Positions 32,181 through 51,516 of a DNA stretch of 64,000 nucleotides are shown piece after piece. The stretch is from a virus. The notes below the pieces were generated by a model. The model had not been told where the DNA came from. It saw only the letters and a list, made by a program, of their open reading frames with translations, and did no database searches. The stretch is from IMG/VR virus record IMGVR_UViG_3300022891_000002, positions 1 to 64,000 of that record. The stretch is one strand, 5' to 3'. Every line of letters begins with the position of its first letter. Position 1 is the stretch's first letter. A program made the position numbers and the translations under genes.

Positions 32181-35100
32181 ATGGCAACTACCTTGATAAA
32201 AAAAACTAATCCGAAGACGGGTCTACCGACTAATACTAAAACCTTTTCGTCTCTAAGTACAAAGTATGTAGAGGAATTTGTCAGTAGAGTAGAGAGTAAA
32301 TTATATGACTTTAATAAAAGTTTCCTTACTCCTTATAAAAAGAAGTTAGATGAGTTAGATAGGTCAGTAATATCAGATATAGAAAAGAACTTATCTTCTC
32401 CAGCTCTTTTAGTTAAAAATCAGTTAGATGAGTTATGGAACTATCATTGGATGATAGGTCAAAAAGATGTCTTAAGTCTCGAAGGTAAGAAAATAAGTAA
32501 GGTAGCTAATTATTCTAGTGAGGTAGATAACTTAGTAACCTTTGCTACTCAAGATGATTTAGCTGTTAAAGGTCTTTGGGATGCAAAAGTAGAGAAGAGT
32601 ATACTAAGAGACTATGATAGACGAGTAATAAGACTTCAAAGAGACTTAACTAAAGCTACTGATATTAGTGATAGAAGTAATATATCTAATGAGTTAAAAG
32701 ACATTAGTAGAGAGTTAGATATATTTTTAGGTAAGGTACAGAACAGACAGTCTACGGCTACTAATAAACAATTTGCAACTATCGGTGTTAGAGTTCGTGA
32801 CTTACAAGAGACAGTAAGAGTAATGGAACTAAAGCTATCTAATACGTCTACTAATGTAACTAACGATATTGACATACTTAACTCATCTCAATTTGGCACT
32901 ATCTACCAAGATAAGAGAACTTTGTTATTAGGTCAGTCTTATTCAGGTGATTATAAGAAAGGTATTATCTCTAATATTAAGAAGTATTTTATAAGTAGTG
33001 AGGATACTAATAGGCTTAAGACTAGAGAACGTGACTTATTTACTCAACTAACTAGGAATACTATAAGTAATATAAGTAAAGAAGAATCTACTAGAGTTAA
33101 AACTTTAATTAGTAACAAAGATAGATTGTCTAATAAAGACAGGTCAGCAGCTCAAGCAGTAGATAACTTAGTTAAGTCTCTTAGTTACGGTAAAACTCTT
33201 AGTGATAAGAAGATATCTAACTTTATTAAAGGAGGTAATAACTTAGATAATTTAAGGTCAGTTACTCAAGGTACTATCTATGAAAATTCTACTAATCAGT
33301 TAATTAATGAACTAAGTAGTGGAGGTAAGAACGTCAAACCTATATTACAAGAGATAAAGAATAGAGAGAAATACCCGTTAGGAGATAATGTAGAGAGAGT
33401 TTATGATAGTAGGAGTGGTAGTTATAGAAGTATAGAAGATTTAGAAAGTTCTATTAGTAACATTTTTGGTATTCAGCGGATTAAACGCATTGCTGAAACA
33501 GAGATATCTCTTGCGTATAACTTAGGTAGATTAAAGAAATTAGAAGAGTTAGGTTATAAGAAGGTAAGAATAACTAATGAAGCTGAGAACAATAGTAATA
33601 GACAACAAGCTCTTAATGTATATGGAAGTTTAGCTAAAGCATATAGGTCAGACACTAATGAACGTTACTTACCTATGTTATGTACTCATTGTCTTAGTAG
33701 AAATAATCAAGTAATGGACATTAGCACTATTTATAGGAGCAAGGTAGATACTAAGTATGAAATAAATGGGAAGTATTCTGCTTTACCTCCTTTCCATGTA
33801 TCTTGCTGGTGTTATTTTGTTGGAGTTGAAGAGAGTAAGAGAGATAAAGAAGGAAGTTTAGTAAGTGAACTAGCCGAAACAATTAAGAACTCAGTAGTAG
33901 CAAATAGTTTAAGTGGGGAGACTACTACATCTAACGCTTTCTACAATGACCCTTTTATAAAGAAATTAGTAATTGCAGGAGTAGGACTACTTGGTGTAGG
34001 AGCAGCTTACTATGCTTACACAAAACTGGCAAGAAATAGAGTTCAAATACCTCTTAATTTAAGACCTAAGAAGAGTAGTGTTAGTAATGTAACTGAGGAA
34101 ACTCAAGAAGCTTTACTTAAGAACTTTGTAAATAACTTAGACAATACAGCAATGGTAGAAGTAGCAGAAGTCGCAGGTAAGTTACCTAAAGCATTCAGGA
34201 TACTTAGTAGTGCAGATGATTTAGCAGGAGCAGTAGATAACCAACTATCTCAGGAAGTTTACACACTATCTAATTCTACTCAAGCTACTCTTAATGAACT
34301 AATTGCAGATAACCCGGAGTATTTAAGTGTATTAGACTCTTTACTATCTTCTAAGAAATCTTATGAGTCTATAAGAGATAGAATTCTACAAAATAAACTA
34401 AAAGGTCAAGATTTAGATGAAGTGTACCAGACCTACTTAAATAGTAAACAAGAATATGAAGCTCAGTTAAGTAGATATTTACAAGCAACTAAAGATAAAA
34501 AATCTAACCTTATTGATTTAAGTTCAAATCTTAATGTAAGTGCAAGAGAAGTATTACTAGATAATAGAAGTAACTTACCTGAAGGAGCTAGTTTACAAAG
34601 TGCATTAGAGAATCTTAAGAGTAGGAAGTTAATAGATAGCAGTAATAAACAACTAAGAAGTATTGAAAAGAACCTCAACAAAGAGATAAGTAACATTAGT
34701 GACTTACAATCTAGAGAAAGTAGGTTAGTAGATACAAGGTTAGGAGGTAGAGATAGTAGAGCAAGAGCTGAACAACTAAGAAGTATTAAACCTAAGGTAC
34801 CTTCTACTAATACTAAGAATTTAGATGCAGTAGTTAGTAACGTTAATAGAATCAAACGAGACTTAAATGATAATCGTCTCAATATGGAAACTATTAGAAG
34901 TATTAGTAAGAAACGTTTAGATAGTTCTAGTGTTGCGGATAGAGCTTTACTAATAGATACTCAAAGACAGTATTACAGACAGATATTAACTGAGAAAGGA
35001 AGAGTAGTCAGTCAACTAAAGAGCATGAGTAACGTAGAAAGTCTTGAGAATTTTAGTAAGCTATATAGGTCAGAGATAAGTAATAAAGCTAAGACAGGTT

Positions 35101-35378
35101 ATCCATACAGTAGTGGGTTGTGGAAAGAAGCTGACATTAGTAAGTTAGACGAGACTTATAAAGAAGTGAGTAATGTACTTACTATCAAGAAGTCTTATGA
35201 GTCATATCTATCAGAATTAGACGATATGTTAGAGAAAATGAACAATTTTGAATCTGTAATTAGTTCAAATATTCAGTTTTCAAGTACAGGAAGTAGTGAT
35301 GAAACAAATAGAATAAACTTAAGAATAGAAAGATTACGCAAAATTCCCAGAATTGGATGTTTGAAACTATATGAGTGA
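32181..35378 (+). CDS. MuF/SPP1-gp7-type head protein, very long
   Basis: A 1,065-residue protein. Residues about 436-544 carry the MuF signature: RIAETE (436-441) and a Asn/Gly-rich helix, then CTHC (501-504) and PPFHVSCWC (536-544). MuF proteins are minor head components near the portal, and some are injected. They are usually 250-500 residues; this one adds a long coiled-coil N-terminus, a membrane-like segment near residue 595 (LVIAGVGLLGVGAAYYAY) and a long helical C-terminus. That build suggests a protein carried in the head and delivered into the host, which is inference. Its end overlaps the next gene. Confidence 0.8.
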   Translation: MATTLIKKTNPKTGLPTNTKTFSSLSTKYVEEFVSRVESKLYDFNKSFLTPYKKKLDELDRSVISDIEKNLSSPALLVKNQLDELWNYHWMIGQKDVLSLEGKKISKVANYSSEVDNLVTFATQDDLAVKGLWDAKVEKSILRDYDRRVIRLQRDLTKATDISDRSNISNELKDISRELDIFLGKVQNRQSTATNKQFATIGVRVRDLQETVRVMELKLSNTSTNVTNDIDILNSSQFGTIYQDKRTLLLGQSYSGDYKKGIISNIKKYFISSEDTNRLKTRERDLFTQLTRNTISNISKEESTRVKTLISNKDRLSNKDRSAAQAVDNLVKSLSYGKTLSDKKISNFIKGGNNLDNLRSVTQGTIYENSTNQLINELSSGGKNVKPILQEIKNREKYPLGDNVERVYDSRSGSYRSIEDLESSISNIFGIQRIKRIAETEISLAYNLGRLKKLEELGYKKVRITNEAENNSNRQQALNVYGSLAKAYRSDTNERYLPMLCTHCLSRNNQVMDISTIYRSKVDTKYEINGKYSALPPFHVSCWCYFVGVEESKRDKEGSLVSELAETIKNSVVANSLSGETTTSNAFYNDPFIKKLVIAGVGLLGVGAAYYAYTKLARNRVQIPLNLRPKKSSVSNVTEETQEALLKNFVNNLDNTAMVEVAEVAGKLPKAFRILSSADDLAGAVDNQLSQEVYTLSNSTQATLNELIADNPEYLSVLDSLLSSKKSYESIRDRILQNKLKGQDLDEVYQTYLNSKQEYEAQLSRYLQATKDKKSNLIDLSSNLNVSAREVLLDNRSNLPEGASLQSALENLKSRKLIDSSNKQLRSIEKNLNKEISNISDLQSRESRLVDTRLGGRDSRARAEQLRSIKPKVPSTNTKNLDAVVSNVNRIKRDLNDNRLNMETIRSISKKRLDSSSVADRALLIDTQRQYYRQILTEKGRVVSQLKSMSNVESLENFSKLYRSEISNKAKTGYPYSSGLWKEADISKLDETYKEVSNVLTIKKSYESYLSELDDMLEKMNNFESVISSNIQFSSTGSSDETNRINLRIERLRKIPRIGCLKLYE

Positions 35379-36516
35379 GATATATCTAACTAAAAGTAAA
35401 CTAGGTTCTATTACTTTTGCTAGTGAGATTAGTCCTAGAAAGATAAAGAAGAATATTAATGTCAAAGGATTTTTTAGGAAAGGTAGATTTGTTAGAGCCT
35501 TTAATAGAGAGCAAGATGTAAGAGAGAAAGTAGTTAAGGTTGCTGTTGTTAGTTTAGCTGTATTGGGAACTGCTTTAGGTGTTGGAGTGGCAAGTGCAGC
35601 TTTAACTAAAGTTCGATATAACAGAAATCTAGTTAACTTTGGTAAGAATATTGCTAAAGGTGGAATTGGTATTGAAGATATGAAAATTCCTTCAGGTGTT
35701 AAAAAAGTCCAAATTCCTAAACCTATTACTGACCCAAATAAAAAATCTATGACATTCTTTGTTGGGGGGATGAGTAAGTTTGAAGATGCCGAAGGAGATA
35801 AGTTTATGAAGTTGGTACGGTCTGCTTACGCTAAACAAGGTAGACCGATAGATAAGACTAATGAACTAATTCCTCTTTTTCACCAACATCAAGTAAAAAG
35901 AGATACTAAGTTTGGAATAGCTCAAGAAATAGCTGATGTATTTGAGAAAGCCACCGTAAAAGGATATAACAAAGACTCGGTTATTATGGCCAATGAGATT
36001 TATAAATGGCACAAGTTAAACCCAACTAAACCTATTAATATTGTTACGGCTAGTGCTGGAGGTTTTCAAGGTAGAGATATTCCACATATATTAGAAGCTG
36101 CGGGAGTAGATACAAAGAAATTAATGAAAGTGTTTTCTACTGCGAGTCCTGATTATGGATTAGTAGATGAAGTAGTACCTACATTAAAAGTTATGCACAA
36201 TGATGATTTATACTCTAAAACTATTCCGGGTATAAAAGACGGATTGCGACTGCCTTCTTTACATAGAGGAACTAGGTTTGTAGGTAAAGGGAACACTCCT
36301 GAATATAAAGATATGGTAGCTAGAAAGTGGATGTATGATGACGGAAACCAAGTAGTTAAAGAAAACGGAACTTTTGTAGCTGGTAAAAGATATAACTCTC
36401 CTTCTGATAAACAGATGCCTTTAATAGTTCACTTTGCTCCTGCCTATTTTAACGGAGAAACTAAGACATCTAAGAAAACTTTGCAATACCTACACAACTT
36501 TATGTTTAAGGATTAG
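35371..36516 (+). CDS. Alpha/beta-hydrolase-like protein with a membrane segment
   Basis: A 381-residue protein. Residues 11-18 (LGSITFAS) resemble the N-terminal tag of the glycine-zipper proteins. A hydrophobic segment lies at about 53-76. The catalytic part begins with MTFFVGGMS. A nucleophile elbow, NIVTASAGG, holds S228, and a late His (IVHFAPAYF) could complete a triad. This suggests a serine hydrolase such as a lipase or esterase. It overlaps the MuF gene by eight bases. Head placement and injection are possible; the substrate is unknown. Confidence 0.6.
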   Translation: MSEIYLTKSKLGSITFASEISPRKIKKNINVKGFFRKGRFVRAFNREQDVREKVVKVAVVSLAVLGTALGVGVASAALTKVRYNRNLVNFGKNIAKGGIGIEDMKIPSGVKKVQIPKPITDPNKKSMTFFVGGMSKFEDAEGDKFMKLVRSAYAKQGRPIDKTNELIPLFHQHQVKRDTKFGIAQEIADVFEKATVKGYNKDSVIMANEIYKWHKLNPTKPINIVTASAGGFQGRDIPHILEAAGVDTKKLMKVFSTASPDYGLVDEVVPTLKVMHNDDLYSKTIPGIKDGLRLPSLHRGTRFVGKGNTPEYKDMVARKWMYDDGNQVVKENGTFVAGKRYNSPSDKQMPLIVHFAPAYFNGETKTSKKTLQYLHNFMFKD

Positions 36517-36839: not shown

Positions 36840-37064
36840 ATGGCAGGTAAAAGATTAGTTCAAGCAGCAAAAATGGCGGGTACTGGAGCAGGAACGGGTT
36901 GGGCTGCTGGCTATGCTTTAGGTGGAAATAACGATAAAGTTCCAATGGTAGTTAAAGGTAAATTGAAGAAAGGAGGGAAAAAAGCTCCTACAATTCAAAG
37001 AAGTGCTGCTATCGGTGGTTTAGCTTTAGGTGCAGGGATAGGCCTACTTAAAAAGAAAAAGTAA
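36840..37064 (+). CDS. Small glycine-zipper protein
   Basis: A 74-residue very basic protein with GTGAGTGWAAGYALGG and GGLALGAGIGLLKKKK. Repeated GxxxG spacing suits a membrane-inserting helix pair. It has an AGAGAGG ribosome-binding site and overlaps the protease-like gene by one base. It belongs by composition to the glycine-zipper set at 45.6-51.5 kb. Confidence 0.65.
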   Translation: MAGKRLVQAAKMAGTGAGTGWAAGYALGGNNDKVPMVVKGKLKKGGKKAPTIQRSAAIGGLALGAGIGLLKKKK

Positions 37065-38272
37065 TGACGATAATTCATTTTAATACTGTTCCTAGCGCGT
37101 TAAAAGAAGTTGGTAATAGTGAAGACCCAAATGAAATAGTAAAAGAAGGTTTAATATTCTACTCTACTGAAGAGAACAATCCACATATAGATAGTAGAAA
37201 AAATAAACATAACTTTTCCCCTGATAAAATTAGACAGTTAGTAGAGAATACTAATAAACATTTCAATATCTCTGAGTGTGGAATTCCTGTATTAACAGAG
37301 CATAAAAAAGATGTTAATAATGTGGTAGGCTTCATAGAGTCTCCAATGGAAGCTAGAGTAATAGATGAAACTTATACGAAAGGAAATCCAAAACTCAAAC
37401 ATTTATTAGGAAGAGTTGGTGTATTCGTTAAAGATGTTATTATCAAAACTCCAGAAATAGTTGATAAGATGAGAAGAGGTCTTGCTAAAACTGTTTCTGC
37501 GGGTATTGATTTAGATTCTTTTTCTATTAAAGAACTTTCACTTGTAGCTTTACCAGCAATACCAAACGCAACTCTTTTTAGTTATCATGCTAATAAAGAA
37601 GCTAAGAAACCAAACATGAAGAAAATTAAAAATAAGAATTTGTTAGTATCGAAAGGATATAGTAAAGAAAGTAATTATGCTTTATCTCTTGAAGAAGCTC
37701 TTAATACTTCACAAAGTATTGAAGAACAAAGAGAAGAAGCAATGAAGATATTTACTGCATTTCTGGAAGTAGTTGAAGATGCTAATGAGATTGACCCAGA
37801 GGAAATGGCTTCAATGGGGATACAAGACCCGTCTGAACTTATCCAAGGAGCAATTGAGGATTTATCGAATATGTTAGCTGAGATGTTTGTTTCTGTTCCT
37901 GAACCAGAGACTCAACAACCAGCTCCCGTAACTCCTCAAAGACCAGGAATGCCAGCTAAAACAGCTAGGTACTCTTTTTCTCCCGAGTTAATTAAGTTTG
38001 CAGCTAATCCTTACGCGAAGAGTGGTAGAATGGCTGCTACTGTTCAAAGTAAGATTAATGATATGGCTACTGGTAAAGGTGCTGCTGGAGTTTATAGCAA
38101 AATAGGTAAAGCAATCAAAACTGTTAAAGCTAATCCTCTTAAAACTGGAGCTGCTCTGTTAGTGGCGAACCAAGTAAGAAAAACAGGGATGAAAGCTTTG
38201 AGTAACCGTAAAAAGAAATCTCAAAGTTTAGAAGGTAAACTATCTCGTGCAATTAAAACATTTAAAAACTAA
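37064..38272 (+). CDS. Prohead-protease-like protein with a glycine-zipper tail
   Basis: A 402-residue protein. Residues 70-170 follow the prohead protease pattern: VLTEH (H80), GRVGVF, a helix, TVSAGID (S145) and ELSLVALPAIPNA. These serine proteases mature the head by cleaving scaffold and capsid proteins. After residue 185 comes an acidic, scaffold-like region. The last 70 residues are a basic, Ala/Gly-rich module nearly repeated in the next gene (ANPLKTGAALL here; KNPGKAGLAMA there). Position before scaffold and capsid genes fits. Confidence 0.7.
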   Translation: MTIIHFNTVPSALKEVGNSEDPNEIVKEGLIFYSTEENNPHIDSRKNKHNFSPDKIRQLVENTNKHFNISECGIPVLTEHKKDVNNVVGFIESPMEARVIDETYTKGNPKLKHLLGRVGVFVKDVIIKTPEIVDKMRRGLAKTVSAGIDLDSFSIKELSLVALPAIPNATLFSYHANKEAKKPNMKKIKNKNLLVSKGYSKESNYALSLEEALNTSQSIEEQREEAMKIFTAFLEVVEDANEIDPEEMASMGIQDPSELIQGAIEDLSNMLAEMFVSVPEPETQQPAPVTPQRPGMPAKTARYSFSPELIKFAANPYAKSGRMAATVQSKINDMATGKGAAGVYSKIGKAIKTVKANPLKTGAALLVANQVRKTGMKALSNRKKKSQSLEGKLSRAIKTFKN

Positions 38273-38276
38273 AACT

Positions 38277-38546
38277 ATGAAGAAATCAATCAACTTTTCT
38301 ATTGCTCAAATGGCTTTAGATTCTGCTAAAAAAGGAGTCAAGAGAGCTAAACGTGTCGGCACAGTAATGGCTAAGAAAGGATTAAAGGCAATAGCTAAAA
38401 ATCCTGGTAAAGCGGGTCTTGCAATGGCTGGGTTGGCTACTGCTGGTGGTTTAGGAATGGCTGGGTTAAAAGCAATTGGTAATGCTCGTAAACCTAAAAG
38501 CTTGACTGACCGACTCAAAAATGCTTCTAAGAAGATGTTTAAATAA
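38277..38546 (+). CDS. Small basic glycine-zipper protein
   Basis: An 89-residue protein starting MKKSINFSIAQMALDSAKK. The start at 38277 is preferred to an in-frame GTG inside the upstream gene. The first residues resemble the tag of the 46-51 kb proteins. The rest (KNPGKAGLAMAGLATAGGL and NARKPKSLTDRLK) copies the C-terminal module of the protease-like protein. Probable packaged or membrane-active protein; inference only. Confidence 0.62.
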   Translation: MKKSINFSIAQMALDSAKKGVKRAKRVGTVMAKKGLKAIAKNPGKAGLAMAGLATAGGLGMAGLKAIGNARKPKSLTDRLKNASKKMFK

Positions 38547-38551
38547 CCAAT

Positions 38552-39580
38552 ATGAGTAGAGAACAAAGGCAAGAAGTATATGAGTTATATGACCAAATTT
38601 TAGAGGGTCTGGAATCTAACTACTCTAGTGGCGAGTTGGATGAAGATGATTATACGCGACTTAAAATCAAATCTTTGGCTGACTTAGAAACATCTTTAAT
38701 TGACTTAACAGGATTAAAAGAAAGTAAAATTAGTAACAATGAATCAAATTACAGTATGAACTACGCAAATTTCAATATGGCAGGTTATTTTGTTCCCGCT
38801 CTTGTAGAGTGTATTGAGCAAGATTATGATACTTTAGAAGATGGTTTAGCAGATATTCTCGAACAGACTGAGCTAACCGAACAGCAACTAAATAAAGTTC
38901 TAAGTGGTAAGTTGTTTCCACGTCCTGAGATGGTAGATATTCTCAATGAAATGTTTACTGCAACTTCTACTAACGACGAAAACGCTCTTTTGTTACAAGC
39001 TTACGCAGCAGTAGATAGAGGTGACTTGGAAGAGTCAGTGTTGCTTGAAGTAATGGGTGAAACTGAGGAAGATGACGACTTGGAAGACGAAGATGAGGAT
39101 GAAGAAGATAGCGAAGAAATAGAAGAAGATGAGGAAACTGACGAACCTCAAGAAGATGCTAAATATTCCTACATCAATGATGAAGTAGAATCTTTAAAAT
39201 CTAAAATTGCTAACTTTGAATTTAACTCTCAACTGCAAGAACGTGTATCTGAAGTAGCTACTTATGCTCAACGAGGTCTTCAAGAACATTGGCTTACTAA
39301 GTTTAAGCGGGATTTATATTTAGGTTCTGTTACTAAGTTAGAAGATATGGTGGCAAGCTTCTCTCAAAATGCAGAAAGTAATGGAGTAGATTTAGAAACT
39401 CATCTTTATGCTATTGAATTTGCACTTCAAGCTGATGAAGAAGCTAATGACCCCTCTGTTGATTTTTCTCGTTATGTAGGGGAAAGTCTAACTCCTGCTA
39501 ATGAAGTAGATGATGAATTGCTAAAACTTAATGTAGCTAATATGAAAGAACGTTTAGCTGCTCGCAAGAATAACCGATAA
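38552..39580 (+). CDS. Putative scaffold protein
   Basis: A 342-residue acidic protein. Residues about 175-205 are almost all Asp and Glu. A helical C-terminal half follows, ending in a basic patch. Acidic coiled-coil proteins between the protease and the capsid gene are usually scaffolds that shape the head and are then cleaved and lost. No signature motif exists, so the call rests on position and composition. Confidence 0.6.
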   Translation: MSREQRQEVYELYDQILEGLESNYSSGELDEDDYTRLKIKSLADLETSLIDLTGLKESKISNNESNYSMNYANFNMAGYFVPALVECIEQDYDTLEDGLADILEQTELTEQQLNKVLSGKLFPRPEMVDILNEMFTATSTNDENALLLQAYAAVDRGDLEESVLLEVMGETEEDDDLEDEDEDEEDSEEIEEDEETDEPQEDAKYSYINDEVESLKSKIANFEFNSQLQERVSEVATYAQRGLQEHWLTKFKRDLYLGSVTKLEDMVASFSQNAESNGVDLETHLYAIEFALQADEEANDPSVDFSRYVGESLTPANEVDDELLKLNVANMKERLAARKNNR

Positions 39581-42990: not shown

Positions 42991-43752
42991 ATGACTAAGC
43001 TAAGAATTATTAACAGAACTCCTTTAAAGAGTCGTGCAATTCCATTTATTGAACTACAGCCTAAATATCTTTATTGGCTAGACACTGGTAAAGAGATTGA
43101 TGTAGAAATTCTAAAAGAGAAAGATGGACATTATGAAGTAAAGCTGTCTACTAATTTTGAGAATTCTCCAGTAGGTATTCGCTCTTGGTTTATCTATAAA
43201 GAACACGTTCAAGTAGTAGAAGATAAGAAAAAGAAAGTATCTAAGAATGTACTTAAGACTGATTACTATTATCAATTAGATAATAGTTACCAACCTTATA
43301 CATCTTGTTTTCTTACTTGTGTAGCGATGTTACTATCTTTCTATAAAGTTAAGGTAACTCCTGACCAACTCTATAACAAGTGTCGTGATTTAGGATACGA
43401 CAGATTTTCTGGGGAAGGTATTGTAGCTATCCTTAAAAACTATGGGGTTAATTATCACTATACTACTTCTGGTACTGCTCAAGATTTAAAAGATACTGTT
43501 ACCAAGGCTCCTGTAATCTTAGGCACCTATCTAACTGAAGCTAGCCACATTGTGTTAGTAGTTGGCTATGACGAAACTGCTTATGATGGTCGTGGAGCTT
43601 TTATAGTCAATGACCCCTATGGAGAGTTTACTCATAACGGCTATATCCACACTCCTACAGCCGGCAAAAATACACTTTATTCTTTCTCTTTAATTGCTCA
43701 AGTTGGCGCACCTGAAGGAGACGGAAATTACTGGCTACATCTTCCAGTTTAA
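42991..43752 (+). CDS. C39-like cysteine peptidase, possible endolysin
   Basis: A 253-residue protein. Residues 1-78 look like an SH3-type binding domain. Residues about 90-215 match papain-like C39 peptidases: Q101 and C106 in YQPYTSCFLTC, H186 in ASHIVLVVGYD, and N207-D208 in IVNDPYG. With a small membrane protein gene next to it, a cell-wall-cutting lysis enzyme is plausible. A virion-associated protease is the alternative. Confidence 0.75.
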   Translation: MTKLRIINRTPLKSRAIPFIELQPKYLYWLDTGKEIDVEILKEKDGHYEVKLSTNFENSPVGIRSWFIYKEHVQVVEDKKKKVSKNVLKTDYYYQLDNSYQPYTSCFLTCVAMLLSFYKVKVTPDQLYNKCRDLGYDRFSGEGIVAILKNYGVNYHYTTSGTAQDLKDTVTKAPVILGTYLTEASHIVLVVGYDETAYDGRGAFIVNDPYGEFTHNGYIHTPTAGKNTLYSFSLIAQVGAPEGDGNYWLHLPV

Positions 43753-44039: not shown

Positions 44040-45599
44040 ATGGTTGTATTTTCTGTATTATTTGAGAATGTTGAGGGAGAGTATTATTACCGATATATAA
44101 GTGATAGTATTACGTATTATCTCCCTTCTTATAGGATTGATAGGTTAGATAAGCCAATCAGTAGTTTTATCAATGTTCAAGGGCCGATGTATGCTGAATC
44201 CGTTTATAAGTTCTTAGATAAAGTTTTTGAGACAGGGGAGAATATTGGTGATTTTGTTGTTACTGACCCAAGAAGTGAAAAAGAGATATCTCTAACTTTA
44301 TTTGGCTATAAGTATCTCAACTTTGTTATTTTAGTTGGTAGTCAAAAGTCTGATAGTTTACTAGAAAGCACTTTATTTAAAGAGAACTATTTATTTCTGA
44401 TTCAATGGACAGGTTCAAAAGAAGAGTTGGTAGATGATATTTCTGATAATGTAGTAAGTTTACTTGAATATACAAAACCAGAGATACTCGCAAAATCTTA
44501 CATTTCTTTTATTAATCCTGAAGATGTTCTTTCTTTTAAATCGGAATTAATTACTTACTTAGATAAAGGTACAGCGTCTTTCTATCAAAAATATAGATTA
44601 GTTAGTAAGTCAGGTAAAGATATAACTGTTCTTGACCATACTTGTAGAATTCTTAGAGAGGAGAAAGTAGTTACTATTAGCTATTTGAGAGACATTACTA
44701 AAGATGAGTTAATGTCTACTAAATTAGCTGAACTAGCTTTATTAGATGAAGAGAATTTTAATACTAGCTTACTTATAAAAATTGAATGGGATAGAAATTT
44801 TAACATTACGAGATGGAACAATCAAGCAGAAAATTTACTTGGTTGGGATAAATCAATATTAGGAAAGAATATTAGAGATACTCACCTTTTTAATTCAGAA
44901 GATACCACTACAATACAAGGTCAGATTGAAAGAATACTTAACCACAAATCTGAATTAGTAATTAGTAACTTTAGAGTAAATAAAAAAGATGGTAATCAGC
45001 TAGACATTAAATGTTCTAACAGGCTTGCTATTCGAGAAGGGGAACTTAGAGTTATTTCTTCTATTATTGACAGAAGTGAAGAAGCTTCTTTAACCACTCG
45101 CTTAGTAGAAATGGAGGAAAGGTCAGACTTATTGCTTAAAACTCTTTATTCTACTAATACTAACTTTAACAATGATGTGTTTAAAAAACTTGTAGATACT
45201 CCTTTGACTTCTAGCTCTGAAGGTTTAATTAAAGCTGAGATTATTATCAGAAAGATAGAAGAAGAGTTGAAGAGACTTAATGATACTATTTTTCACAATA
45301 ACGGTAACAACTTACTTAGTGAAGTAGCTAATCTCAAATATGATGTCAAAGACCTAAAAGAAGATGTTAATAGAGTTAAAGATAGTCAAGCTAAATTATC
45401 TTCTGAACTTAACGACTTACTTAATATTAATATTCTTAGTTTAAGTAAAAATTTAAACTTTAAAAATTTAACAGGATTGCTTGTAATTAGTTATGTAGTG
45501 TTTGGGATATTGTTTCCGGCTTTGTATCATAATCTAGCTAAACCTTATCTTATTCAATACAATAAAGAACTTAAACAAATAGAAGGTAAAAAAGATTAA
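44040..45599 (+). CDS. PAS-domain protein with coiled coil and C-terminal membrane anchor
   Basis: A 519-residue protein. Residues about 130-225 and 245-350 are PAS/PAC domains: the second has WDRNFNITRWNNQAENLLGW and ILGKNI, and both end in blocks such as TISYLRDIT. A degenerate PAS-like part may fill 15-115. A coiled coil follows (about 350-465), then one membrane helix (about 478-498) and a short basic tail. No kinase, cyclase or DNA-binding output domain is present. PAS domains sense ligands, redox or light. In a virion gene block this is very unusual. A weak start site precedes it. Confidence 0.75.
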   Translation: MVVFSVLFENVEGEYYYRYISDSITYYLPSYRIDRLDKPISSFINVQGPMYAESVYKFLDKVFETGENIGDFVVTDPRSEKEISLTLFGYKYLNFVILVGSQKSDSLLESTLFKENYLFLIQWTGSKEELVDDISDNVVSLLEYTKPEILAKSYISFINPEDVLSFKSELITYLDKGTASFYQKYRLVSKSGKDITVLDHTCRILREEKVVTISYLRDITKDELMSTKLAELALLDEENFNTSLLIKIEWDRNFNITRWNNQAENLLGWDKSILGKNIRDTHLFNSEDTTTIQGQIERILNHKSELVISNFRVNKKDGNQLDIKCSNRLAIREGELRVISSIIDRSEEASLTTRLVEMEERSDLLLKTLYSTNTNFNNDVFKKLVDTPLTSSSEGLIKAEIIIRKIEEELKRLNDTIFHNNGNNLLSEVANLKYDVKDLKEDVNRVKDSQAKLSSELNDLLNINILSLSKNLNFKNLTGLLVISYVVFGILFPALYHNLAKPYLIQYNKELKQIEGKKD

Positions 45600-46546: not shown

Positions 46547-47050
46547 ATGAGAAAAATAACGTTTACAGGACAAGTACAATCTAACTATAGAGCTATTGTT
46601 CGTTCTAGTTCTAGCCTAAGTAATACATCTAGGTCTGCTAATAGTTTTAGAGCCAAACCTAACTCTATTGATACTAGAAATAAAAACATTAGAACTGTAG
46701 CAAGAGCAGTAGCTTATACTAATGTAGGAAATACTTTAAGAAAAGAAGTAGATAAAAATAAGCAAAGATTCTTAAAATCTGGCCCAAAATCTCGAATTGG
46801 TAAGATTGCTAATGATACCAAATTAGGAGCTTCAGCAGGAGCAGCTTTAGGTTTTCTTAAAGGAGCAGGAAATAGTTTAACTACTCCGGGGAGTGTAAAA
46901 AAGAAAATTGCGTATGGACTAGGACACGCTACTAAACAAGCTTTAAAAGGTGGAATTGGAGGAGGTAGTCTAGGAGCAGGAATTGGTACTACGAGAGGTT
47001 TTATTCAACCAAATAAAAAGAAATCACTTTTAGATAAATTTAAAAAATAG
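46547..47050 (+). CDS. Tagged glycine-zipper protein 1
   Basis: A 167-residue very basic protein starting MRKITFTGQV after GGGAAG; longer in-frame starts inside the upstream gene are rejected. It has a Ser/Arg-rich linker, then the shared module KSGPKSRIGKIANDTKLGA, a Gly-rich zipper (GGIGGGSLGAGIGTTRGF) and the tail PNKKKSLLDKFKK. The same order recurs in the next two genes. I infer a packaged protein that may insert into membranes. Confidence 0.65.
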   Translation: MRKITFTGQVQSNYRAIVRSSSSLSNTSRSANSFRAKPNSIDTRNKNIRTVARAVAYTNVGNTLRKEVDKNKQRFLKSGPKSRIGKIANDTKLGASAGAALGFLKGAGNSLTTPGSVKKKIAYGLGHATKQALKGGIGGGSLGAGIGTTRGFIQPNKKKSLLDKFKK

Positions 47051-47056
47051 AAATTT

Positions 47057-47935
47057 ATGATGTTTGATATTACGTTTGCAGGTCAAGAAGAATGTCTAAA
47101 CTTCGGAAGAGGTAAGGATAAAGCTAAAAGAAAAAGTAGAGTTTCTATAGCTGCTGGAGCTGGATTAGGTACTATAGCAGGTGGCCCAGTTGGAACTATT
47201 GCTGGTGGATTGATTGCTAAAGGTATTAATAAAGAAAAAGATAGATATGAAAAGCAAGGCCCAAGAAGTCCTCTAGGTAAGATTGGTCACGATGCTAAAT
47301 TAGGGGCTAAATCAGTAGGGATTGGTAGTGCTATTACTGCGGGGTTGGCTGGAGCAGCTTTAGGTTCTAAATTACCAACTGTAAAAAAGAAAGGTTTTCT
47401 AGGTCTAGGTAGGGATAAAAAAGCAGAAAGTAGACAGAAACTTAAAAATACACTTATTGGAGCAGGTTTAGGAGTTCTTGGAGGTGGAGTTAGTGGAGCT
47501 GTTTCTGGTGCAGGTAACGGTGCGTTAGTAGGAGCTACAAGAGGATTTGTACAAGAGAATAAAACCAAGAAAAAGAAAGGTAAGTTTTCTAACTCTACGA
47601 AACTTGCTGAATTTGCTCTTAGTCTTCCACCTAAAAAACAAAAACAAAGAAGTAGATTAGGAATGGTAGGACATGATACTAAAGTTGGAGCTAAAATTGG
47701 TGCGGGTTTAGGAGCAGCTTATGTAGGTAGTAGCGGTATTAGAGGAGTTATGAAAGCTCCTGGCAGTCTTAAATCTAAATTGGGTTCTGCTGCCTTAGTA
47801 GGTGCTTCGGGTGCATTATTAGGTAGTGGAGTAGGAGGTTTTAGTGGGGCAACTTACGGAGCAGGAATAGGGGCAGGTAGAGCATTACTGACTCCTAGAA
47901 AGAAAAAGTCTCTATTTAATAGATTAAAAAAGTAG
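47057..47935 (+). CDS. Tagged glycine-zipper protein 2, with a duplicated module
   Basis: A 292-residue protein starting MMFDITFAGQE, then NFGRGKDKAKRKS. It has two copies of the unit: KQGPRSPLGKIGHDAKLGA and RSRLGMVGHDTKVGA, each followed by a Gly/Ala zipper and a basic end (LLTPRKKKSLFNRLKK at the C-terminus). It looks like a fusion of two smaller family members. Confidence 0.65.
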   Translation: MMFDITFAGQEECLNFGRGKDKAKRKSRVSIAAGAGLGTIAGGPVGTIAGGLIAKGINKEKDRYEKQGPRSPLGKIGHDAKLGAKSVGIGSAITAGLAGAALGSKLPTVKKKGFLGLGRDKKAESRQKLKNTLIGAGLGVLGGGVSGAVSGAGNGALVGATRGFVQENKTKKKKGKFSNSTKLAEFALSLPPKKQKQRSRLGMVGHDTKVGAKIGAGLGAAYVGSSGIRGVMKAPGSLKSKLGSAALVGASGALLGSGVGGFSGATYGAGIGAGRALLTPRKKKSLFNRLKK

Positions 47936-47939
47936 AAGT

Positions 47940-48566
47940 ATGAGAAAGATTATATTTGCAAACTCTACTAATTTAAACTTTGGTAGAGGTAGAGATAAAA
48001 AGAAACGTAAATCTAGAACTATTCTTTCGGACGCTAAAGACTTTGTTGTAGGTGCAAAAAATGCGGTCAAAGAAGCTAATATTAAAAGTCCTAAAGATTT
48101 AGTAGATATCTATAATAGACGTAGAGATAGGTCTAGCGTAGCTACTAATTCTCTTACTACTATTGGAGCTGCTTTAGGTGCTAGAAGTGCTATGAAATCG
48201 GGTATGAATCCCACTTTAGGTGCTTTATCTGGAGCTTATAATTTATCTTTTATAGGAGGAGCAGTAGACAGAAGAATATCTAAAGAAAAAGCTAGATATA
48301 GAAAAGAAGGTGCTAGGACTAGATTAGGTAAAGTAGGAAACGATACTAAAGTTGGAGCAGTTAGTGCAGCAGGAAGTTACGCTATTGATGGTGCGATAAA
48401 ACAATTACGAAGACCCGGAAGTATTAAGAGTAAAGCACTTAAAACTATTGCTGGCGCTATTTATGGAGGAGCTAAAGGAGCTGTCATTGGAGGCATCGTT
48501 GGCTCAGGGGTAGGAACTATCAGAGGATTTGTTCAACCTAACAAGAAAAAGAAGGATAAGAAATGA
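47940..48566 (+). CDS. Tagged glycine-zipper protein 3
   Basis: A 208-residue protein starting MRKIIFANSTNLNFGRGRD. It has the module KEGARTRLGKVGNDTKVGA, zippers before and after it, and the tail FVQPNKKKKDKK. It lies four bases from the upstream gene and overlaps the next. Strong similarity to proteins 1 and 2 shows local duplication. Confidence 0.65.
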   Translation: MRKIIFANSTNLNFGRGRDKKKRKSRTILSDAKDFVVGAKNAVKEANIKSPKDLVDIYNRRRDRSSVATNSLTTIGAALGARSAMKSGMNPTLGALSGAYNLSFIGGAVDRRISKEKARYRKEGARTRLGKVGNDTKVGAVSAAGSYAIDGAIKQLRRPGSIKSKALKTIAGAIYGGAKGAVIGGIVGSGVGTIRGFVQPNKKKKDKK

Positions 48567-49804
48567 GAGAGATTATATTTGCGGGACAAGTAAAGAATAA
48601 TTACCTATATACCAACTTTGCGAAATCTAATAAGAAAGATAAAGAACCGAAAAGAAATCTTATTAAAGGAGCTGCTTATTTAGGAGCTTCTGGAATAGTA
48701 GGTCAACAAGCTATTAGGTCAGGTATTCCTAGATTATTAGGTGTAAGATTGGAATCTCACAGTACCTCTAAAAAGAATGCTAAAGAAATATTAAAAAACG
48801 GAGGAATTCTCGACCCAAATAAAGGAGGAAGTGGTGCTACTAAAAATTTAACTAATGATGTAAAACGTGGCTATGGTTGGGCTGCTGATGTATTTAATAA
48901 ACAAGAAAAAGGTAAAGAATTTCTTACTAGAGCAAAAAATAGTATTTATATAACAGGTAGAAATGACGCTTCTGCTAACGCTTCAAATAATGTAGCTAAT
49001 AACTTAAGAGGCTTTTGGAAAACTCCAGTAGGTCAATCTATCTATAAGAAAGGACAAAGAGCTTTTTATAGAGGTCAGTCTAGTACAGATATTGATAGAG
49101 ATGCTATAGAGTCTGAAGTCAAAAACTGGAGAAAATCAAAAGAAACACAAGAAAAACTTACAAAACTTAAAAATCAACTTAAAGACCAAGTAGAAAGTTC
49201 AAAAAAACCTAAATCAAAGCTAGACAATCCTAGAGACTTTACACCTAAAAAAAGCAAGAAATACGGCTATCTCTCTCCTATAGATAAATCAATAAGAAAG
49301 GGGATACAAGAGCAGATTAAAGAGATTAACAGTGGAGCTAGAAAAAGAGCCGAACTTACAGATATAGCCGTTGAAAAAAGAAAACCCGAAGCTATTAAAA
49401 AGGGTTTATTAGGCAGAGGTAAAAGTTTATATATTGGTGGTGGAGATGATTACTTTAATAAAAACTTTGTACCTGACCCTGATGATGCAATTGCTTTAAA
49501 AACCAACAAACCTATTAAAGTTAGTGGCAGTAGAACAGGTGCAACTTTAGAAGCTTTAAAAAGAGAAGGTGGAGGAAGTAGATTAAAAGGAATTGCTAGA
49601 TTAGTAAAAGCCAATCCTAGTAGAGCTTTGGCGGGAGCTGGTATTTTGGCAGGAGGTGGATTATTAACAGCTAAACTGGGTCAGGCAGCCTACAGGAATA
49701 TAACAGCTCCTAGTGATGGTAAAGTCAAAGGATTTAGTAGAAAAAATAAATCAGGTAAATGGTCTAATGTTAAATCATTTATAAGAGATAAAATAAAGAA
49801 ATGA
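48563..49804 (+). CDS. Tagged protein with an ADP-ribosyltransferase-like region
   Basis: A 413-residue protein starting MREIIFAGQVKNNYLY. Residues 63-90 (LESHSTSKKNAKEILKNG then GGILDPNKGG) match the first motif of H-Y-E-type ADP-ribosyltransferases (H66). SIYITGRNDASANA (128-141) could be the Y motif, and FVPDPDDAIAL (302-312) the final strand. Between them is a charged helical insert. The last 70 residues repeat the basic zipper tail of the 37-38.5 kb genes (VKANPSRALAGAGILAGG). Phage T4 Alt is a known injected enzyme of this class; this call is weaker and by motif only. Confidence 0.5.
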   Translation: MREIIFAGQVKNNYLYTNFAKSNKKDKEPKRNLIKGAAYLGASGIVGQQAIRSGIPRLLGVRLESHSTSKKNAKEILKNGGILDPNKGGSGATKNLTNDVKRGYGWAADVFNKQEKGKEFLTRAKNSIYITGRNDASANASNNVANNLRGFWKTPVGQSIYKKGQRAFYRGQSSTDIDRDAIESEVKNWRKSKETQEKLTKLKNQLKDQVESSKKPKSKLDNPRDFTPKKSKKYGYLSPIDKSIRKGIQEQIKEINSGARKRAELTDIAVEKRKPEAIKKGLLGRGKSLYIGGGDDYFNKNFVPDPDDAIALKTNKPIKVSGSRTGATLEALKREGGGSRLKGIARLVKANPSRALAGAGILAGGGLLTAKLGQAAYRNITAPSDGKVKGFSRKNKSGKWSNVKSFIRDKIKK

Positions 49805-50292
49805 GAAAAATAACTTTTATAGGTTCTACTAATACCAGTTATTTATTTGGTAGACCTAAGAAACCATCAAGATTAAAAAGTGCGGGAATAGGTGCTGGTG
49901 TAGGAGTAGCTGCTGGTTATAATGCTGGTGGAATTCCTGGTGCAGTTATGGGAGGACTTAGAGGTGCTACTGATAGTTTTGTAAGGAAGAACGGCTATAA
50001 CTCTTTACTTACTAGAGCTAAAAGATATGCTCCTACTTCTTTTGCTGGCAAAGTAACTAACGATGCTAAAACTATTGGAACTCTATCTGCTGCTGGAGGT
50101 GGATTAACGGGAGCTGTTAGAGGAGGAATCAAAGGACTTAAAGGTGGTTGGAAAGGTGCTTTAGGAGGAGCAGTTGGTCAAGGAGCTAGGTCTGCATTTG
50201 GTGCTGCTAAAAAAGGAGCTGCTGTAGGTGCAGGAATTGGTGGATTGAGGGGATTGAAGAGAAAGAAAAACTATTTATTGCCTACTTCTTAA
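49801..50292 (+). CDS. Tagged glycine-zipper protein 4
   Basis: A 163-residue protein starting MRKITFIGSTNTSYLFGRPK. It has a zipper, the module SFAGKVTNDAKTIG, and a second long Gly-rich zipper. It overlaps the upstream gene (ATGA). The tail is shorter (GLKRKKNYLLPTS). Confidence 0.65.
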   Translation: MRKITFIGSTNTSYLFGRPKKPSRLKSAGIGAGVGVAAGYNAGGIPGAVMGGLRGATDSFVRKNGYNSLLTRAKRYAPTSFAGKVTNDAKTIGTLSAAGGGLTGAVRGGIKGLKGGWKGALGGAVGQGARSAFGAAKKGAAVGAGIGGLRGLKRKKNYLLPTS

Positions 50293-50294
50293 AT

Positions 50295-50654
50295 ATGAGT
50301 AAAAGTAAATGCAAGTTTAGGTCTAGGTTTAACACTTGGAAAAGAAGTAGAGAAGCTTGGGAGGTTAGTAGAAGTCTTATTCGTAAGTCTCTTTACTTAT
50401 GCCCTATTTGTAGATTACCTCTATCACTAGGAGAAGGACATTTATTCCATATCATACCTATTAAACTACTAAGTAACTATAACTGTATTAGTTTAGTAAG
50501 TAATGAACTTAATCTACTTTACTCTTGTAAGTCATGTAACTTAAGACAGAGAACTGACATTTACCTACCTTGCTTAGAAGATAAGTTACTAACCTTATGG
50601 ACTAAGGTAACTAATAACATAACTAAAGATAATAACTATGAGAAATGCGCTTAA
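50295..50654 (+). CDS. HNH-type nuclease-like protein
   Basis: A 119-residue basic protein. It has CPIC, then GHLFHIIPIKLL, an N-rich stretch, LLYSCKSCNLRQR: two cysteine pairs around an H-x-x-H core, as in HNH endonucleases. Phage HNH proteins act in packaging or as homing enzymes. Its place between virion genes fits either. It overlaps the next gene by 17 bases. Confidence 0.65.
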   Translation: MSKSKCKFRSRFNTWKRSREAWEVSRSLIRKSLYLCPICRLPLSLGEGHLFHIIPIKLLSNYNCISLVSNELNLLYSCKSCNLRQRTDIYLPCLEDKLLTLWTKVTNNITKDNNYEKCA

Positions 50655-51147
50655 AGTAGATAAGATATTTAACTGGCAAAGTGATACGAGTAATGGTACT
50701 CAGAATAATAACTGTAGGTTACAGATATACTCTCCGTTGTACGACTTTGATGAAACAAGTAAAGCTATTAAGGTAAAACGTAGATACTTAAATCCTAAAG
50801 AATACGAGGTAGTTATATGTAGCGACTTTAATGACCATGTATCAGGTTCTATTACTACTGAGATTTATAGTTTAGCTAGTAAGGTAATTAAGGAACATAC
50901 ATTGCTAGTTCCTCATACTATTTGGATTAATAAATATGAAGAACATCATGAAGGACTCTTTCATTTTCAATACTCAATTTCATTAGTAGATATAGATAAT
51001 AACTACGTAAGTAATAGTAGCTTTACTTATTATCCTATTTGGCAAGATGAATTAGAGTTTATTATGACTGGTGAACCTATCTATTTTAAACAGTTAATGT
51101 CCGCAGGCTGGGAGAAGTTATATAACAGATGGAGAACAAGAGTATGA
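50638..51147 (+). CDS. Protein of unknown function, likely virion
   Basis: A 169-residue protein starting MRNALKVDKIFNWQ, with beta-rich, aromatic sequence (EEHHEGLFHFQYSISLVDID). It overlaps the HNH-like gene and the next tagged gene. No family is recognised. Confidence 0.6.
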   Translation: MRNALKVDKIFNWQSDTSNGTQNNNCRLQIYSPLYDFDETSKAIKVKRRYLNPKEYEVVICSDFNDHVSGSITTEIYSLASKVIKEHTLLVPHTIWINKYEEHHEGLFHFQYSISLVDIDNNYVSNSSFTYYPIWQDELEFIMTGEPIYFKQLMSAGWEKLYNRWRTRV

Positions 51148-51516
51148 AGAGAATTATATTTATGGGTCAAGTTAAAAATAAAAATATAGAATTTGGACTT
51201 CTGAGAAAAGATAACGACCAAGAATAAGTATGGTTTAGTGAATAATCATAGTAAAAGAGAAATAGCTTTAGGCACTGTCTTAGGTGGTTTAGCCGGAATG
51301 AATGCTGGAGGAATATACAACGATGCCAGAGCAGCCAGTGAAGTAAACAAACGTTTAAGTATTAAGGATTTAGATAAAAGAATAAAAGGACAATGGAAAG
51401 CTAAACTAACTGGAGCAGTTATTGGTGCAGGATTAGTAGGAGGTAGTCAACTATTAATGAGAAAAAATAAGAAAGACAAAGACGGACGTTCAGATAAAGG
51501 TAAAAAGAGAAAATAA
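51144..51516 (+). pseudogene. Tagged glycine-zipper protein 5, split by a frameshift
   Basis: An ATG at 51144 opens MKRIIFMGQVKNKNIEFGLL and stops after 27 residues at 51227. The next frame reads KNKYGLVNNHSKREIALG and continues to 51516 with a zipper (GGLAGMNAGG, GAVIGAGLVGG) and a basic tail. A GTG at 51238 is the only start for that part. Removing one base near 51215-51222 joins tag and zipper into a normal family member of about 123 residues. So this is one gene, broken, misassembled or read by frameshifting. Confidence 0.6.

Follow-up and report, generated by a model that had tools for sequence, protein, structure and literature searches.

The window analysed here, the first 64 kb (64,000 nucleotides) of the 150,360-bp virus record IMGVR_UViG_3300022891_000002, contains a cluster of five adjacent genes (46547-50292) in its head operon, here called cargo A to E, whose products all begin with the peptide M-x-x-I-x-F-x-[GN]-[QS]. 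This tag is present on unrelated protein bodies, tagged genes are gained and lost at slots of the head operon, and the motif at the core of the tag is also found in the protease, the scaffold and a minor head protein. These patterns suggest that the tag is a leader that directs accessory proteins to the capsid, so that they are loaded as cargo into the prohead, and that it is probably removed by a protease; we regard this reading as likely. Packaging, cleavage, delivery and effector function are what we infer from the genes.

A common N-terminal tag on five adjacent genes

The five genes are all on the + strand. Cargo A (46547-47050, 167 aa) combines the tag MRKITFTGQVQSNY (MRKITFTGQ) with an RxxIGK..DTK module, a zipper and a Lys tail, and the same elements follow the tag MRKIIFANSTNLNFGRGRDKKKRKSR (MRKIIFANS) of cargo C (47940-48566, 208 aa). 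Cargo B (47060-47935, with an alternative start at 47057; 291 aa) begins with MFDITFAGQ and a second motif, LNFGRGKDKAKRKSR, and contains two copies of the module, separated by an internal leader-like stretch at residue 181, KLAEFALSLPPKKQKQRSR, which looks like a second leader. The tag of cargo D (48563-49804, 413 aa), MREIIFAGQ..TNFAKSNKKDKEPKR, precedes an enzyme-like conserved domain, a mildly hydrophobic segment and a basic tail, while in cargo E (49801-50292, 163 aa) the tag MRKITFIGSTNTSYLFGR (MRKITFIGS) is joined to glycine zippers. Two further genes within the interval 46547-51516, one HNH-like (50295-50654) and one encoding 169 aa (50638-51147), lack the tag; the HNH-like gene is conserved in almost every relative, in the head-completion region.

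The pattern ^M.{1,3}I.F.[GN][QS], which was picked post hoc with the data already seen, matches 5 of the 256 predicted proteins of the 150-kb genome, every one of them within the A-E cluster; in 2000 trials with shuffled N-termini the number of matches averaged 0.022 and never exceeded 2. The claim of an earlier, sequence-only reading of this DNA, that five neighbouring genes start with nearly the same peptide, is thereby borne out. The tagged proteins are all basic, with net charges of +14 to +51. Other features that had been ascribed to the entire set are distributed unevenly. The RxxLGKxxxDTKxGA-like module is present once in A and C, twice in B and in a weaker form in E, and is absent from D and from a sixth tagged gene described below. 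GxxxG motifs exceed their number in shuffled sequences in A, B, C and E, slightly so in the body of the sixth gene, and not in D. The Lys-rich ending claimed for all does not extend to E, whose C-terminus has no final Lys, and the single enzyme-like body that had been noticed among the tagged genes corresponds to D alone. The tag also occurs outside the interval, in a hydrolase-like protein (35371-36516) and in a small protein encoded at 38277-38546.

Unrelated bodies and variable positions of the tagged genes

When the bodies were compared with the first 35 residues removed, those of A, B and C matched one another (E-values of 1e-6 to 1e-9) as well as two homologs in relatives, and by this similarity the three are ordinary paralogs. 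No body similarity was detectable in this comparison for D, E, the sixth body, the hydrolase-like protein at 35371 or most of the relatives' tagged genes, and the 22 head-block proteins compared, tagged or related, were grouped by body into 16 clusters. Ordinary full-length homology, the explanation that the sequence-only reading had itself set against capsid targeting, applies to A, B and C and not to D, E, the sixth gene and the hydrolase, the bodies of which are unrelated. A short conserved N-terminal peptide on otherwise unrelated proteins is the arrangement known from T4-type capsid-targeting sequences (CTS).

Related IMG/VR contigs were found with B, D, E and the capsid protein as queries. 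In ten contigs the order of the core genes is fixed (MuF-like, hydrolase, protease, scaffold, decoration-like and Phage_cap_E capsid genes, then several small genes, C39 peptidase, holin-like, PAS, Gp36-like, HNH and a fibre-like protein) and the tagged genes are located at varying slots. For example, a tagged gene precedes the C39 peptidase gene in one contig (L004:6009), follows it in another (L005:6724) and replaces a 116-aa gene in a third (L044:16878). The most widely conserved tagged gene is E, with orthologs in six other contigs; among these the leader is 68% identical versus 89% for the body, with the F invariant and I or T kept at the next key position. A C-terminal tail, RxDKGKKRxxYxK, also recurs on zipper proteins that otherwise differ (L043, L044, L047, L038 and L046).

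The tag core, [AILT]-x-F-[AGS] with a Lys/Arg patch after it, is also present on unrelated bodies in other phages, which were found among L052-L088 by scans for GRGKDKxKRK-type patterns. Leaders such as MAEFGRGKDKKKRK, LANFARTRGAKDKRPRKK and IADFARTPGSKDKKPRK are present on many bodies, with 2-9 per examined locus. Because one 20-aa leader, MQYKLATFGRG..., is found on two unrelated bodies, one of which occurs elsewhere (97% identical) without it, the tag is shown, at the level of the genes, to be swappable between bodies. The blocks of these phages also encode a protein kinase (Pfam, 7e-9, above the cut-off) with a different basic N-terminus, a kinase-like protein (1e-4) with a basic N-terminus of another type, and an ADP-ribosyltransferase-like protein (2.7e-4, just under the cut-off) with a TTFSKKKGKR leader. 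The protease of L064 matches that of the Pseudanabaena phages PA-SR01 and Pam2 (2e-26 to 4e-26). In bacterial genomes there were two pattern matches, neither of them a leader-type protein.

Five genes of PA-SR01, a distant isolate, start with M[QKE]HF[AV]xF (shuffled mean 0.001). One of these (103596) and a gene at 124079 with the sequence AEFA are lone + strand genes among - strand genes. The PA-SR01 leaders have the motif, mostly without the basic patch. Internal leaders at the junctions of fused cargo are present in B, in PA-SR01 (21599) and in L070:5245.

The motif in the head proteins

The head block of the window, also on the + strand, begins with a MuF/adaptor-like minor head protein (32181-35378), which has no family match and whose function is assigned from position only; it has a conserved I[QK]FS near its C-terminus. 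The hydrolase-like protein (35371-36516) contains an ITFAS tag at residue 14 and a strong hydrophobic segment. Five relatives keep ITFA or ISFA at its N-terminus (ITFAGQVQ in G008) amid variable flanks, and across relatives only I[TS]FA and a basic patch are conserved there. A Mu gpI-like prohead protease (37064-38272) starts with MTIIHFNT and has LIKFAAN near its C-terminus, followed by a cargo-like basic tail; in some relatives the protease stops at the motif, and the zipper tail is absent or separately encoded. In the slot between protease and scaffold is the small basic protein mentioned above (38277-38546), with the leader MKKSINFSIAQ. The scaffold-like protein (38552-39580), whose role is assigned from its position and acidity, has a conserved NYANF[NS] in a variable linker. 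[AILT]-x-F-[AGS]-like sites are in this way conserved amid variable stretches at both ends of the protease, in the scaffold linker and in the C-terminal region of the MuF-like protein. Counted per Phe, the motif is enriched in the head block of genome G000 (21/208 vs 46/1671, p=4e-6) and in that of PA-SR01, which served as the test (18/125 vs 86/1713, p=1.3e-4). In a general scan of G000, motif occurrences at internal positions gave a weak signal that does not by itself separate head proteins from others.

The protease matches proteins of PA-SR01 (9e-17) and Pam2, and the PA-SR01 gene is annotated as a Mu-like prophage I protein. Alignment A3 of the protease family has nine members, of which two, the window member not among them, match the PHROG 'head maturation protease' family phrog_976 (best 2.5e-5). 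The window's protease is related to head maturation proteases transitively, via PA-SR01, and the genome appears to encode both a prohead protease (by way of PA-SR01 and phrog_976) and a scaffold (by position and acidity).

A proposed capsid-loading leader and alternative explanations

In the proposed mechanism, the Lys/Arg patch comes after a leader core that consists of a short linear motif, [AILT]-x-F-[AGS], frequently present as a tandem pair. Such a leader would bring accessory proteins into the prohead, its likely binding partner being either the acidic scaffold or the protease, and the Mu gpI-like head-maturation protease would then probably cleave it at or near F-[AGS]. Once mature, the basic proteins would remain with the DNA in the capsid and be delivered with it to the next cell, where they may act as early effectors (enzymes such as D, or kinases or ADP-ribosyltransferases in relatives) or, alternatively, as DNA- or envelope-associated zipper proteins. 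The capsid targeting put forward by the sequence-only reading is supported because the tag is carried by unrelated, gained or lost and swappable genes in a head operon with a protease and an acidic scaffold; for the presence of these proteins in virions, the genes are suggestive. More tentatively, and with somewhat less than even confidence, [AILT]-x-F-[AGS] may be a common head code in a broad, unrecognised group of phages with Mu gpI-like proteases, read by the protease and carried by scaffold, protease, minor head protein and dozens of interchangeable cargo effectors (kinases, ADP-ribosyltransferases, hydrolases and zipper proteins). In that case, a single short leader would allow such phages to load and exchange the effectors that they inject, and fused cargo would be cut apart in the prohead.

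Several results weigh against capsid loading. Several of the patterns were chosen after the data had been seen, and a Y/W/L/M control was also enriched about 1.5-fold (p=0.0019), so that the enrichment of the motif in head blocks is partly compositional. With a stricter leader rule, no enrichment was found in the PA-SR01 head block (p=0.35), where leaders lack the basic patch. A direct hhalign comparison gave no match between the protease family and Mu gpI (probability 1.3%). Basic zipper proteins without the motif are present in the same operons, in the window (a small protein at 36840-37064, +) and in two relatives (L037:12361 and L046:7266). No virion proteomics was found in the literature for these phages, the available data for PA-SR01 being limited to sodium dodecyl sulfate-polyacrylamide gel electrophoresis (PMC10286775).

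Among the alternatives, the leader could be an uncleaved binding peptide that tethers internal proteins to the scaffold, portal or capsid, with structural or DNA-condensing zippers that are not delivered. Most bodies are indeed small, basic zippers without a recognisable enzyme domain, they have a strong positive charge, and the conserved positions could equally be those of a binding motif or of a cleavage site. However, bodies and slots turn over highly, relatives have enzyme cargo, and leader-like motifs occur at fused-protein junctions and in the protease and scaffold, making this explanation unlikely. In another alternative, in line with the insertion into or passage through the host membrane that the sequence-only reading inferred, the zippers would belong to ejection or pilot proteins that act on membranes and build a channel across the host envelope. 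GxxxG motifs above shuffled expectation and weak matches to glycine-zipper Pfam models are consistent with such a role, but the matches are below the curated cut-offs (best 17.9 bits vs 28.9 required for the glycine-zipper membrane models). Further, the Kyte-Doolittle peaks of the zippers (1.25-1.44) are lower than those of the holin-like (1.78) and hydrolase (2.12) segments of the same phage, which leaves insertion into or passage through the host membrane unsupported by the sequence, and PA-SR01 is long-tailed and would not obviously need an internal ejection channel. We consider a membrane channel distinctly improbable.

Plain paralogy, in which one basic zipper protein was tandemly duplicated and the tag is its inherited N-terminus, fits the related bodies of A, B and C with their two homologs, and the common RxxLGK module with its weak trace in E. 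It appears already largely contradicted by the dissimilar bodies of D, E, the sixth gene, the hydrolase and most tagged genes of relatives, and by leaders on unrelated bodies in PA-SR01 and L067/L085, leaving it very little probability. Least credible of all is an RNA or translation-initiation element in place of a peptide signal. The tagged genes are tightly packed, with some ATGA start-stop overlaps, and their 5' ends are A-rich, but synonymous positions vary between tags (ATA/ATT, GGA/GGT) and the motif is also found internally and at C-termini; a translation signal was rejected.

If capsid loading is correct, many phages, probably cyanobacterial ones, would have a short leader that can be swapped and is unlike that of T4. 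A T4-like strategy would then exist elsewhere, and virion-delivered proteins would become predictable from sequence in genomes in which almost every gene is 'hypothetical'. The leader would also be a candidate for use as a short tag with which to bring proteins into phage heads, and the reading is directly testable in the cultured phage PA-SR01. A cyanobacterial host is suggested because the capsid protein is related to those of Pseudanabaena phages (28% identity, 2e-40).

Comparison with known systems

The best-known example of capsid-targeting leaders that load a range of effectors is T4, in which the cargo protein Alt is an ADP-ribosyltransferase. Apart from a short targeting peptide at the N-terminus, the internal proteins of T4 differ greatly from one another, and they are taken up into the prohead core (PMC3012670). 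Like T4 IPI-III and Alt, the genes described here encode a short N-terminal peptide on diverse proteins near a prohead protease and scaffold, possibly including an ADP-ribosyltransferase as well. In contrast to T4, the tag motif appears to differ from the CTS, the head genes are of the Phage_cap_E and Mu gpI type, further copies of the leader lie within fused proteins, and packaging and cleavage are predicted.

In the giant phages SPN3US and phiKZ, the prohead protease (gp245 in SPN3US) cuts after A-x-E, a motif present in many head proteins; propeptides are found at N-termini and, in the protease itself, at the C-terminus (PMC10052503). A three-residue motif with fixed outer residues that recurs in head proteins is common to both cases; here, however, the motif is [AILT]-x-F-[AGS], its cleavage is predicted, and the genome and head genes differ. 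The tag system would work like those of T4 and the giant phages and is a demonstrated member of neither.

The DarA, Hdf and DarB proteins of phage P1 reside inside the head as accessory components, have a positively charged side that faces the DNA and act in the next host, and the N-terminus of DarA is processed by the prohead protease (PMC12810830). Unlike the cargo described here, the Dar proteins are large and dedicated, and no short leader common to many bodies is described for them (PMC12810830). The homologous protease and capsid of PA-SR01 and Pam2 are accompanied, as in the window, by leader-bearing zipper genes between protease and scaffold, but those genes are annotated as hypothetical and their leaders are HF[AV]xF or AxF, not IxFxGQ, mostly without a basic patch. 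Effectors linked to MuF proteins, and their delivery in virions, are also known. Polyvalent proteins are phage-encoded, multidomain and used in host conflicts (PMC5512222). The effectors of polyvalent and MuF-linked systems are domains of large proteins, whereas here many separate small cargo genes have a short leader.

Cargo D, the sixth tagged gene and other genes of the head block

The tagged proteins had no convincing match in Pfam, PHROGs, NCBIfam or the PDB, and for cargo D there was no Pfam or PDB match. The conserved domain of D includes LGVRLESHSTS, with HGTS in its L064 homolog, which offers a lead, and only a lead, towards an ADP-ribosyltransferase. AlphaFold models of D (4 rows) and of a shorter homolog (6 rows) are unusable, with predicted local distance difference test scores (pLDDT) of 41 and 34, respectively. 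D is present twice in one relative contig, with the variant leaders MRFIAEFKK and MHFIAEFKK.

A sixth tag, MKRIIFMGQVKNKNIEFGLLRKDNDQE (MKRIIFMGQ; 51144-51227, +), runs into a stop after 27 codons, and the corresponding body (51238-51516, +), with a zipper and the tail KDKDGRSDKGKKRK, is in the +1 frame relative to its tag. Joining the two (51144-51516) needs a +1 shift around AGAAAAG. Because a relative has an intact tagged protein (L044:15881-16243) with the same KDKDGRSDKGKKRK C-terminal tail, the sixth gene in the window is either frameshifted or wrongly assembled.

The hydrolase-like protein (35371-36516) also contains VKSYxRKGKxVKxYxR, a second recurrent N-terminal module that is present on hydrolase-like, kinase-like and other bodies (L064, L067 and L071) and is possibly a second cargo leader. 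Also in the head block, a C39-like cysteine peptidase (42991-43752; Pfam, 3.6e-16) adjoins a holin-like gene. The protein encoded at 44040-45599 combines a PAS domain with a C-terminal coiled coil and hydrophobic segment and is conserved at the same place in relatives; such a sensor domain is unusual in a head operon. In Pam2, the annotation of Pam2_03 (ON014754.1 2064-3905) carries a neurotoxin name, but the gene is located in the structural region and has a 614-aa counterpart in PA-SR01, and the name is probably a mis-annotation.

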